A stretch of 64,000 nt of DNA from Actinomycetota bacterium. Its GTDB lineage: Bacteria > Actinomycetota > Actinomycetes > S36-B12 > FW305-bin1. The translations under genes and the position numbers were made by a program. Of this stretch, positions 51,413 through 57,543 are shown piece after piece (positions within the stretch are counted from its first letter, which is position 1; each line of letters begins with the position of its first letter). The notes under the pieces are model-generated. The model was not told the origin of the DNA and searched no databases. It saw only the letters and a program-made list of their open reading frames with translations. The stretch is from positions 124,001 through 188,000 of the forward strand of contig SCTR01000005.1 of NCBI GenBank assembly GCA_004297305.1, in the 5' to 3' direction.

Positions 51413-52561
51413 TCAGCCCACCCGACCCAGCGCCGCGCGCACGACGTCGTCCATGTCCGACATGAGGTGCTCGTACCGGTCGATCGTGGTGGTGATCGAG
51501 GTGTGCCCGAGCAGCCGTTGAATGGCCGGGAGCGGCACTCCGGCGGCGATCAGCCAGGACACGTGGGTGTGGCGGAGGTCGTGGATCCGCACGCGCCTCG
51601 TGACGGTGCCGGGGCACCGGCAGGGCGCCGCGGCTTTGGCGTCCTCCGCCCGGTGCTTGTCACTCCGCACGATACCCGTGACGGCCCGCTGCCAGTGGGT
51701 TCGGTCGAAGGTGGCGTGGTCGACGCGCGCGCCGATTGCGTTGGTGAAGACCAGCTCCCCGGCGCTCGGTCCTCGACAAGCGGCGCGAGGATCTCCGCCA
51801 GGTCGTCCGTGATGGCGAGGGTGCGCCGTGACCGGCGCGTCTTGGGCTCCCCCAGGGCGAACGTGCCGCCGTGCTCACGCTTCCACGCCCGCACCACGTT
51901 GACCTGCTTGGCCTCGAGGTCCACCTCGGCGACGTGCAGGCCGGTCGCCTCACTCCACCGCATCCCGGTCCCGGCCAGGGTCAGCACGAGGGGTCGGTAC
52001 AGGGGTGTCATCGCGTCGACGAGGCGGTCCAGCTCGGGGCGGCGGGTGAGGACTGCCATCTCTTCGGACTTGGTGGTCGGCACGCCGAGGGTGAGCCCCA
52101 TGAAGGGGTTGGACGGCAAGAGGCTGTTGGCGACGGCGTCCCGGAAGCAGGAGGACACAAACGCGGTGAGGTTCCGCAGAGTCTTCGGGGCCAGCCCGGA
52201 TGTGGCGGTGAGCCCGCGGAGGAACCGCCCGGCGATCTCGGGGGTGACGGCGTCGATCGGCAGGTCACCCAGGGCGGTAGTTCTTGAGCATGGCCCGGTA
52301 GTCACGTGCGGCGTGCAGGCCCAGGCCGACCCGGGAGTCGATGGACCGGGTGCACCACTCCGTCACGGTGGGGAGGTCTGGGGCGAGCTTCCCGGGCTCC
52401 TCGGGCGGCGGCCACTTCTGGCCCGCGGCGTCGACTCGACCCCGGAACTTGATTGCCTCGGCGTGGGTGTCGAAGCTCAGAGACTGGCGGCGGCCGGCCT
52501 CATGCCACCCGACGCGGTAGGACGTCTTGGCGCCCTGGATCCGCTTCTCGATGCTCGCCAC
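51413..52561 (-). pseudogene. int: Tyrosine-recombinase integrase with two frameshifts
   Basis: ATG at 52561 opens an AP2-like arm-binding start (MASIEKRIQGAKTSYRVGWH). The frame ends at 52265; the next block (LGDLPIDAVTPEIAGRFLRG through GTGMRWSEATGL with catalytic Arg) is in a second frame from about 52272; a third frame from about 51760, at a run of four C, gives IHDLRHTHVSWLIAAG (His, Arg) and LLGHTSITTTIDRYEH (His, Tyr). All catalytic residues survive, about 380 aa if repaired. It lies 124 nt past the 3' end of tRNA-Arg, the usual place for the integrase of a tRNA-inserted element. Confidence 0.85.
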
Positions 52562-52685
52562 AGAGCAGATTTGACCACGCAGGTTTGACCCCTGCTGGGG
52601 TCTACTGTCCCCTGCCAGGGGACCAATGATCTTCCTCGCACGTCACGTGAAGGTGTTTCTGCAGGTCAGAGGCCTACACGCGGGG

Positions 52686-52757
52686 TGCCCCCGGCAGGAT
52701 TCGAACCTGCGCGCATGGCTCCGGAGGCCACTGCTCTATCCCCTGAGCTACGGGGGC
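52686..52757 (-). tRNA. tRNA-Arg (CCG anticodon)
   Basis: 72 nt cloverleaf. Acceptor GCCCCCG pairs with CGGGGGC, D arm has AGCTCAGGGGATAGAGC, anticodon stem-loop is GTGGC-CTCCGGA-GCCAT with anticodon CCG, and the T arm has GGTTCGAATCC. No CCA is encoded. Reads CGG, a common codon here. The integrase remnant lies beyond its 3' end; no second copy of the tRNA 3' end was seen in the window. Confidence 0.95.
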
Positions 52758-54919: not shown

Positions 54920-55153
54920 ATGGGTGTCGGTGTGGGCGTTTTTCTCCTGGCAGTGGGCTTGATCCTTGCCCTGGCGGTGCAGGACCGGATCAACGGAGTC
55001 GATCTCGTGCTCGTGGGCTGGATCGTGGCGGGGGCGGGCGTCGTCGCGATCATCCTGTCGCTGGTCATGATGGCAATCTCCCGACGTGAACGGATTTCGG
55101 TCGACCGTTCAGACGTCGTGGTCGAAGACCGACTGTCTCCGCCGTACTCGTAA
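54920..55153 (+). CDS. DUF6458-type small membrane protein
   Basis: 77 aa. Two membrane helices (VGVFLLAVGLILALAV and LVLVGWIVAGAGVVAIILSL) with INGVDL between them, then a charged tail. The pattern matches the actinobacterial DUF6458 family, of unknown function. GAGGAGG precedes the ATG. First gene downstream of the stress-type promoter. Confidence 0.8.
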   Translation: MGVGVGVFLLAVGLILALAVQDRINGVDLVLVGWIVAGAGVVAIILSLVMMAISRRERISVDRSDVVVEDRLSPPYS

Positions 55154-55181: not shown

Positions 55182-55270
55182 AAGCCTCGAAGGGTTATCC
55201 CTGTACAGCTTGGGGCGTCACCGGGAAGCAAGGCTGGCGGACGCTGCGCGGACCGGCAGCGGAGGTAGCG

Positions 55271-55354
55271 ATGCGCACGATGTTTGTGGTGTATCTGGCA
55301 GTGATCGTCGTCGGTTTGGCGTATTTCGCCACGCTTGCCGCGACCGGCCGCTGA
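55271..55354 (+). CDS. 27-aa single-pass membrane peptide
   Basis: ATG at 55271 with GGAGG 6 nt upstream. Nearly the whole peptide is one hydrophobic helix (FVVYLAVIVVGLAYFATLAA) with Arg at both ends. Its TGA lies 4 nt before the ATG of the DUF6766 gene, so the two are probably coupled. Too short for family assignment. Confidence 0.6.
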   Translation: MRTMFVVYLAVIVVGLAYFATLAATGR

Positions 55355-55358
55355 CGCC

Positions 55359-56012
55359 ATGACTCGACGCCGATTTTTCCGTGACAACGGGCTGAGCATT
55401 GCCTTCGGTGTGCTTTTCGTGCTAGCCCTCGCTGCACAATCGTGGGCCGGGATGGCGGACGAGAATCACCAGCTCGCACTCGATCAGCAGGACCCCGTGT
55501 CGTGGCTGGAATACGTCACCTCGTCGAACTTCGCCGTCGATATCGCGGAGAACTGGCAGTCCGAGTATCTGCAGTTCTTCCTCTTCATCACGCTCACGAT
55601 CTGGCTGGTCCAACGGGGCTCCCCGGAGTCCAAGAAGCCGGAGGATGCGGGATCGGCGGACGAGCCCGACGACGCGACACGGCGAAGCAGCCGACCGGTG
55701 GTGGCGACCGGCTGGGGTCGACAGCTGTATTCGCGCAGCCTCTCGCTGACGATGCTGGCGATCTTCATCGCCGCCTGGCTGGTGCAGTCGTTCGCCGGTC
55801 TTGTCGTCTACAACGATGAACAGGAACGCAACGAACTGGAGCCGATTTCCTGGCCGGCCTATCTGGCGTCCGGGGACTTCTGGAATCGGACCTTGCAGAA
55901 CTGGCAGTCGGAGTTGCTCGCGGTCGGATCGATGGTGATCTTCGCGGTCTACCTTCGGCAGCGCGGCTCGCCCGAATCGAAGGCCGTCGACGCGCCGCAC
56001 GACTCTCAGTGA
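55359..56012 (+). CDS. DUF6766-type membrane protein
   Basis: 217 aa, four hydrophobic segments. Two halves repeat the same layout: WLEYVTSSNF, NWQSEYLQFFLFI, QRGSPESK (30-100) and WPAYLASGDF, NWQSELLAVGSMVIF, QRGSPESK (150-210), an internal duplication. Similar proteins are widespread in bacteria and are labelled DUF6766. Function unknown. Follows the 27-aa peptide by 4 nt. Confidence 0.8.
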   Translation: MTRRRFFRDNGLSIAFGVLFVLALAAQSWAGMADENHQLALDQQDPVSWLEYVTSSNFAVDIAENWQSEYLQFFLFITLTIWLVQRGSPESKKPEDAGSADEPDDATRRSSRPVVATGWGRQLYSRSLSLTMLAIFIAAWLVQSFAGLVVYNDEQERNELEPISWPAYLASGDFWNRTLQNWQSELLAVGSMVIFAVYLRQRGSPESKAVDAPHDSQ

Positions 56013-56070: not shown

Positions 56071-57324
56071 ATGGCCGGTGCGGAGTCTGGCGACCTTCTC
56101 AGCGTCGCCGACAAGGCCGATGCCGAGTTCGACGTCGAGGACCTCCTCGTCGCGCTGCTCGACCGGGTACGCGCGCTGCTCGACGCGGACACCGCGGCGG
56201 TGCTGCTGCGCGACGACGACACCGACGAGCTGGTAGCCCGGGCCGCCCGAGGACTTGAGCGGGAGATCCGCACCGGTGTGCGCGTCCCGATCGGCACCGG
56301 ATTCGCCGGCAAGATCGCCGAGTTGCGCCAGCCGGTCACCATCGACCGGGTGGACGAGACCACCGTGTCCAACCCGATCCTGTGGGAAGCCGGCATCAAG
56401 GTGATGCTCGGGGTTCCGCTGGTCAGCAACGACGAATTGATCGGCGTGCTGCACGTCGGACGGCTGGCCGATCGGCCGTTCACCGACGACGACGTCGGCG
56501 TGCTGCAGTCCGCCGCCGACCGCATCGCCGGCGCCACCCAGCGCCGGCGCCTGGCGGTGGAGTCGGCTGCCGCGCGGGTGCTCGAGCGTGGGCTGATGCC
56601 GACCCGGCTTCCCCGGCTGGAACAAGCACGCATCTCCGCCAGCTACGCGCCGTCGGACAGCCGCAGCGTCGGCGGCGACTGGTACGACGCCTTCACCGCA
56701 CCGACCGGCGAGCTGTGGCTGGTCGTCGGGGACGTCGCCGGCCACGGCCTGCCTGCTGCCGTGGTCATGGGACGGGTGAAGAGTGCGTTGCGCTCGTACG
56801 CCCTGATCGCCCAGGGGCCGGCCGAAGCCCTGGAACTCACCGACCGGAAAGTCCAGCATTTCGAGGTCGGAACCACCGTCTCGGTCATGTGTGCGTCGGC
56901 ACCGCCGCCGTACCGGCAGTTTCAGATCTGCTCGGCCGGCCATCTGCCGCCGATTCTCGCTGTCCCCGGCCGGCCGGCGCGGATCCTGGACATCCCGCCC
57001 GGGCCGCCGCTCGGGGTGGTGGCGACCTCTCGGTCGGCGGTCGACGTCGAACTGCCCGACGACGCAGTCCTGCTGCTGTACACCGACGGACTCGTCGAGC
57101 GCCGCGGCGAGACCCTCGACACCGGCCTGGAACGTCTCCGCGCAGCCACTCCCGCCGCCGATCCCGGCATCGTCTGCCGCACCGTGATGAACAGCCTCAT
57201 CCGCGACGAGCCCACCGCCGACGACATCGCCGTACTGGCGGTACGGCATGTCCCACAGCGACAAGGGACCTCGAGCCCGCAGGACGGTGTGCCGCTGCGG
57301 CGTCGCCCGTCAGTGCCTGGCTGA
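56071..57324 (+). CDS. GAF-SpoIIE PP2C-type phosphatase
   Basis: 417 aa. GAF sensor domain at about 20-165 (LLDADTAAVLLRDDDTDELV, VPIGTGFAGKIA, MLGVPLVSNDELIGVLHVGR) and a SpoIIE/RsbU phosphatase domain at about 190-395, with metal-site Asp in VGGDWYDAF, GDVAGHGLPAA, LLYTDGLVERR and TADDIAVL. It would dephosphorylate an anti-anti-sigma factor in answer to a small-molecule or redox signal. A STAS fragment is 1.5 kb away. C-terminal 25 residues are polar and unordered. Confidence 0.93.
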   Translation: MAGAESGDLLSVADKADAEFDVEDLLVALLDRVRALLDADTAAVLLRDDDTDELVARAARGLEREIRTGVRVPIGTGFAGKIAELRQPVTIDRVDETTVSNPILWEAGIKVMLGVPLVSNDELIGVLHVGRLADRPFTDDDVGVLQSAADRIAGATQRRRLAVESAAARVLERGLMPTRLPRLEQARISASYAPSDSRSVGGDWYDAFTAPTGELWLVVGDVAGHGLPAAVVMGRVKSALRSYALIAQGPAEALELTDRKVQHFEVGTTVSVMCASAPPPYRQFQICSAGHLPPILAVPGRPARILDIPPGPPLGVVATSRSAVDVELPDDAVLLLYTDGLVERRGETLDTGLERLRAATPAADPGIVCRTVMNSLIRDEPTADDIAVLAVRHVPQRQGTSSPQDGVPLRRRPSVPG

Positions 57325-57390: not shown

Positions 57391-57543
57391 GTGAAACGCG
57401 ACCTCTGGCTCTACCTCGCGTGCTATGTGTTTGCGCTCATCGCCATCGTGGCGGTCATCGAGAACTGGATACCGGTGCTCTACGTCCTGGCCGCCGCGAC
57501 CGTCGTCGTGGCCACGGCACGGCGCACTAGCGGAGACCACTAA
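57391..57543 (+). CDS. 50-aa membrane protein
   Basis: GTG start at 57391. Two hydrophobic segments (LWLYLACYVFALIAIVAVI and VLYVLAAATVVVATA) joined by ENWIP, then a basic tail. Only a weak ribosome-binding site. Third very small membrane protein in 2.6 kb. No family recognised. Confidence 0.5.
   Translation: MKRDLWLYLACYVFALIAIVAVIENWIPVLYVLAAATVVVATARRTSGDH

Follow-up and report, generated by a model that had tools for sequence, protein, structure and literature searches.

Does a frame of only 27 codons, lying directly ahead of a DUF6766 gene in an actinobacterial genome, encode a protein, and is that protein a partner of DUF6766? The question is raised by the window, that is, the whole stretch of 64,000 nucleotides analyzed here. 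The original prediction described the frame as a credible gene of the kind that annotation skips, with one membrane helix, and proposed that it may be an obligate partner of DUF6766. The elements of the locus are as follows.

54920..55153, + strand: gene for a DUF6458 protein (PF20059, E 1.5e-20), a neighbor outside the conserved cassette that occupies the lipoprotein slot of relatives
55261..55265, + strand: Shine-Dalgarno (SD) sequence GGAGG of the peptide gene, 5 nt 5′ of the ATG; anti-SD duplex of -10.9 kcal/mol
55271..55354, + strand: gene for the 27-aa single-helix peptide, stop included (ATG at 55271, TGA at 55352-55354, 27 codons)
55355..55358, + strand: 4-nt spacer from the peptide stop to the DUF6766 ATG; anti-SD duplex at the DUF6766 start of -2.7 kcal/mol, so that it has nearly no SD of its own
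55359..56012, + strand: DUF6766 gene, 217 aa, stop included (PF20554, E 1.2e-88), with two tandem units of ~95 aa and four long helices
55548..55565, + strand: first DUF6766 motif, ENWQSE, residues 64-69, from the alignment; invariant columns E64, N65, W66, S68 and E69
55896..55913, + strand: second DUF6766 motif, QNWQSE, residues 180-185, from the alignment and the repeat alignment
56071..57324, + strand: neighboring gene for a GAF and SpoIIE-type phosphatase (PF07228, E 6.6e-41; PF01590, E 1.2e-18)

The strong ribosome-binding site (RBS) and the gap of 4 nt are thus present as originally described, and so is the single helix. The encoded peptide, MRTMFVVYLAVIVVGLAYFATLAATGR, has a single hydrophobic stretch, with a best 19-residue Kyte-Doolittle mean of 2.43, flanked by Arg 2 and Arg 27. 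A profile of such peptides matches it in its own genome with an E value of 1.6e-10, where the window peptide is itself one row of that profile. A promoter scan of the sigma-70 type found none on the + strand of the locus, and no terminator was found there.

DUF6766 genes were gathered with the Pfam profile from four sources: 296 phylum-wide genomes, of which 18 had a match; 345 class genomes, of which 68 did; contigs of named genomes, which gave 7 loci; and plasmid records, of which 106 matched, 22 of these being opened. The DNA upstream was inspected for all full-length loci fetched but L027, which lies at a contig edge. This locus and L028, L019, L020 and L021, which are weak or partial, stayed outside the analysis, L012 and L002 are duplicates of the window, and partial matches (G322, G452, G364, G323, G523, G571 and short mycobacteria-like ones) were left aside. 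The tree holds 63 full-length rows, with the fragments L013, L070 and L080 and nine short single-unit forms left out. Phages gave no DUF6766 match, and a full-text search of one literature collection returned no publication mentioning DUF6766. At the DUF6766 match of Sinorhizobium fredii NGR234 (L131), the frame at the start of the match stops at once; upstream of it is an unrelated hydrophobic frame of 23 aa (L131 1399-1470) that the peptide profile does not match.

In the tree, 48 rows form one DUF6766 clade with an SH-aLRT of 100 and a stem of 1.23. A single-helix frame of 24-30 aa stands directly upstream of DUF6766 in 47 of these 48 rows, compared with none of the 15 rows outside; among the latter, a hydrophobic frame at L057 forms the end of a longer gene and was scored absent. 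The presence of the peptide changes twice on the tree, against 14.4 changes with shuffled labels, and since this co-occurrence amounts to about one gain and no loss, the clade rows are not independent of one another. Six extra plasmid loci from actinobacteria all have the peptide (two share that of a locus already counted), and eight extra plasmid loci from other bacteria have no peptide relative detectable by profile. The peptide gene is tied to the DUF6766 of one clade. Consequently, the expectation of a short frame upstream of DUF6766 genes holds within this clade and fails elsewhere, and the proposed partnership narrows in the same way: it belongs to one subfamily, in which the 48th row keeps its peptide at another place in the genome, and the peptide is no partner of the DUF6766 family at large.

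The same tie is seen when the class is searched genome by genome. Of its 345 genomes, 38 carry the clade's DUF6766, and the peptide is found in all 38, in 37 by profile and in one by eye; in the 38th genome (G468), the peptide has one ambiguous base. The 37 confident profile matches (E 2.2e-5 or better) all fall in genomes with the clade's DUF6766. Three weaker matches, with E values of 0.002-0.007, fall within long frames and are attributed to chance; the genome of one of the three also has a genuine copy. The profile was built partly from the genomes searched, which flatters its sensitivity and leaves the lack of matches elsewhere unaffected. The sole clade exception to adjacency is L033, in genome G481, where DUF6766 lies at 3.25 Mb and the lipoprotein gene described below lies at 671 kb together with a 27-aa peptide gene (L103 1498-1581). 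The two sites are 2.6 Mb apart, and the peptide gene adjoins that of the lipoprotein with no DUF6766 behind it.

Several features of the peptide are those of a protein rather than of a mere frame. It is 27 aa long in 40 of 47 loci, 30 aa in five, 29 aa in one and 24 aa in one, and in this last case (L050) an alternative start with a strong RBS lies 16 codons earlier. The consensus is MRxMFxxxLxxIxxGLAYxxxxGLxxR, in which the best conserved residues are G15 (44/47), R2 (42/46), F5 (41/47), L16 (41/47), G23 (40/47) and R27 (in 36); L039, which has an ambiguous base, was omitted from this alignment. Pooled over 12 close pairs, dN/dS amounts to 0.33 in the peptide gene and to 0.25 in DUF6766, values from which it is judged that the peptide is under purifying selection. 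A strict rule (25-31 aa, ATG or GTG start, hydropathy above 1.8 and an SD-like motif at the correct distance) holds for 40 of the 47 clade loci and for none of the 15 DUF6766 loci outside the clade. The helix itself was called by hydropathy only, and the conservation moment at the helix period, which would mark a conserved helix face, is weak, with a permutation p of 0.044 and a higher score at 60 degrees. The peptide gene is missing from the gene table of all six annotated plasmid records of Streptomyces, a table known to be incomplete. With conservation, dN/dS and the RBS taken together, the idea of a credible gene skipped by annotation is borne out, and the 27-residue frame is almost certainly a real gene.

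The other member of the pair, the DUF6766 protein of the window, scores 296.6 bits against PF20554, for which the curated Pfam cut-off is 27. Its two halves align with each other with a score of 150, where 300 shuffles gave 43 at most. An AlphaFold2 model has four long helices and a pLDDT of 81.5, with low values in the central linker and the C-terminal end, and a Foldseek search with this model against the PDB gave nothing at an E value of 0.001 or better. In a second structural comparison, the top match was a Na/Ca exchanger with a Z of 8.3 (113 residues, rmsd 6.5), a value that helical proteins can reach by chance and that speaks neither for nor against a shared fold. Seven columns separate the clade (45 of 45 aligned rows) from the remaining proteins (0 of 15). 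Going from outside to inside the clade, the changes include E67Q, M73F, H143Q and A61D; outside the clade, E67, M73 and H143 are found in 15 of 15 rows and A61 in 14 of 15. It is possible that E67, M73 and H143 form a buried polar or metal site that was lost in the peptide-bearing clade. These changes cannot be attributed to the peptide, because the stem of the clade is long. Separately, four distant single-unit DUF6766 proteins (L014-L017) carry a helix at the N-terminus of their own chain. This helix was rejected as a fused form of the peptide, since profile comparison aligned 1 column with a probability of 0.7%, and short forms without the helix exist (L018, L071-L074).

Most relatives have a third gene, which the original prediction did not mention. 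It has ~130-140 codons and lies just upstream, with its stop at most a few nt from the peptide start, and its product has a lipobox and conserved cysteines. No Pfam family matches this lipoprotein. Its model is NTF2/cystatin-like (pLDDT 88.4), with a Foldseek match to 3cnx (probability 1.00, E 0.02) and a VIA-align Z of 9.4 over 97 residues (rmsd 3.5). Of the 38 class genomes that carry the clade's DUF6766, 33 also encode the lipoprotein; strong matches occur nowhere else in the class set, and six weak, partial ones (E 6e-8 to 2e-7) were seen in its other genomes. The five of the 38 that lack it are four genomes of family f9 and the genome of the window, in which all 117 lipoprotein candidates were scored and none matched at an E value of 1. 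A Microbacterium resistens locus outside the 38 (L026) likewise has no lipoprotein gene upstream.

Among the 166 genomes of its order, only that of the window has a two-unit DUF6766, and short forms with a single unit occur in three others. At 2.5-4 kb upstream of the peptide gene, the window contains the following elements.

51550-52305: integrase piece (PF00589)
52265-52561: further integrase piece, in another frame
52684-52757, - strand: tRNA-Arg (ccg), beside the integrase pieces

The region 51550-52757 is likely an integration site with a frameshifted integrase, and the peptide and DUF6766 genes likely arrived in this genome by transfer. Some peptide copies are plasmid-borne. The neighbors here are STAS, MarR and GAF-SpoIIE proteins, and at other loci they are GAF-SpoIIE, STAS, hemerythrin and ferritin-like proteins and trehalose-6-phosphate synthase. 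A Pfam scan of 115 of the 132 neighbor frames, run with no control set, gave four STAS matches, which are not independent since the set contains close relatives, two of universal stress proteins and two of GAF domains. This company hints at a possible general-stress setting for the cassette. The window also has, in the interval that separates the SpoIIE phosphatase gene from an MFS transporter gene, a 50-aa frame with hydrophobic stretches and no Pfam match (57391-57543), which is a possible additional small membrane protein.

From these observations, the peptide is proposed to be a single-pass membrane small subunit of the DUF6766 protein in one actinobacterial clade, a reading to which we give a probability of about 0.75 and in which binding is inferred. 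In the window, the peptide would be translated first, from its strong RBS, and ribosomes would then reach the DUF6766 start by translational coupling, so that both proteins would be made together. Across relatives, the mean anti-SD pairing is -10.8 kcal/mol at peptide starts and -8.5 at DUF6766 starts (scored at the nearest in-frame start codon, as picked by script), against a background of -4.1. In 33 of the 47 loci, DUF6766 has an SD of its own at -6 kcal/mol or lower, and thus such coupling would not be general. Once in the membrane, the helix of the peptide may pack through the conserved F5, I12, G15, L16 and G23 on the four helices of DUF6766, and would in this manner stabilize or complete it. 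In most relatives, the NTF2-fold lipoprotein may dock at the outer face; the lineage of the window lacks it. The whole could serve in the response to envelope stress or to stress in general. A more elaborate version, which we regard as tentative and somewhat doubtful, is a three-part envelope complex, with the NTF2-fold lipoprotein outside, the 27-residue helix as a structural subunit within the membrane, and a DUF6766 that was rewired when the helix arrived, by the change of E67, M73 and H143. In this version, helix plus DUF6766 would be the minimal unit and would appear to spread horizontally on its own, the window being an example in which the lipoprotein is missing.

Other explanations place the function elsewhere or deny it. 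The window holds many spurious frames, as a chance origin in GC-rich DNA would have it, but a frame obeying the strict rule arose in 1 of 9400 Markov shuffles and at 3 of 5480 other positions of the same loci, and conservation across orders refutes this origin. A leader or upstream open reading frame would be a subtler case, in which translation matters in cis for the coupling or regulation of DUF6766 and the peptide itself is inert. Such a leader would fit the tight spacing, which includes a 4-nt overlap of the two genes in 21 of 47 loci, and, in the window, the strong RBS of the peptide ahead of a nearly absent one for DUF6766. It would not account for selection on the amino acids, for fixed length and fixed residues, or for the four Streptomyces-like loci in which 66-77 nt separate the genes. 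Moreover, the peptide of G481 persists without DUF6766 behind it; that adjacency was lost there and both genes were nevertheless kept speaks against a purely cis-acting leader, which we consider quite improbable.

The G481 arrangement, with lipoprotein and peptide genes adjacent and DUF6766 elsewhere, makes a direct tie between the first two possible in that genome, and the short distance between the lipoprotein stop and the peptide start fits the same idea. The peptide could then be primarily a partner of the lipoprotein, for instance as an anchor or export aid, with DUF6766 as a looser third member. Nevertheless, the five genomes without the lipoprotein, that of the window included, keep both peptide and DUF6766, and no genome of the 38 keeps the peptide without DUF6766, so that this arrangement is unlikely. 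Finally, single-helix peptides are often toxic, and, given that some copies are on plasmids, the peptide might be a small hydrophobic toxin with DUF6766 as its membrane antidote. This is highly improbable: with few exceptions, there is one copy per genome in the class set, no Rfam RNA reaches the gathering score in the window, a scan confined to sigma-70-like promoters shows only one weak site, on the minus strand and 200 nt away, and the conserved glycines and arginines fit a subunit.

The widespread and uncharacterised DUF6766 family is incompletely annotated, as a 27-residue gene has been missed across one whole clade, and expressing DUF6766 alone may therefore fail for want of its partner. 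A clean natural comparison is available between the clade and its helix-free relatives, one genome has the genes apart, and specific residues can be named for mutation. Within the reach of the present searches, the peptide gene represents a new gene family that is ordinary in kind, and no description of the cassette was found in the literature on small membrane proteins or actinobacterial short ORFs, as covered by the titles and abstract openings among the matches listed from one literature collection.

Its probable kind is that of the single-helix small subunits of membrane complexes, a grouping by type and not by homology, to which it conforms in having one helix predicted by hydropathy, conservation at the protein level and constant co-occurrence with one polytopic membrane protein. 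The gene of KdpF lies directly upstream of that of its large subunit, and the peptide is likewise a very short single helix encoded directly upstream of a large partner. KdpF is described as the small subunit of the Kdp potassium pump and is thought to stabilize the complex (PMC6134056). In the case of the peptide, however, the neighbor is DUF6766 and not KdpA, and the KdpF family is not among the matches of the peptides. The TorE/NapE proteins, described in the same source as single-helix proteins of 56 aa that organize and anchor a respiratory membrane partner (PMC6134056), share the single helix and differ in length and partner, a likeness drawn from their description. MetS / MaAIMP_sms (NF033493, PF16951), which serves as the small subunit in amino acid importers of the NSS type, is also a short single helix. 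NF033493 is matched weakly by 8 of 46 peptides (best E 0.0018) and PF16951 by 2 of 46 (best 0.023), the window peptide matching neither; in contrast to that system, the cassette has no NSS transporter and the partner is DUF6766. A further parallel is CydX, the small subunit of cytochrome bd oxidase, whose presence is reported to track the CydA allele with a long Q-loop (PMC4325964). Both are single-helix microproteins that share an operon with a polytopic membrane protein and are tied to one type of partner. The partners themselves differ, as the peptide gene adjoins DUF6766 in 47 of 48 loci and not cydAB, and the CydX family (YbgT_YccB) is absent from the Pfam matches of 46 peptides at E values up to 1. 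Thus, the peptide is like CydX or KdpF in kind and a member of neither family, and it adds one more tight association, comparable to that of CydX, between a microprotein and a particular type of membrane protein.
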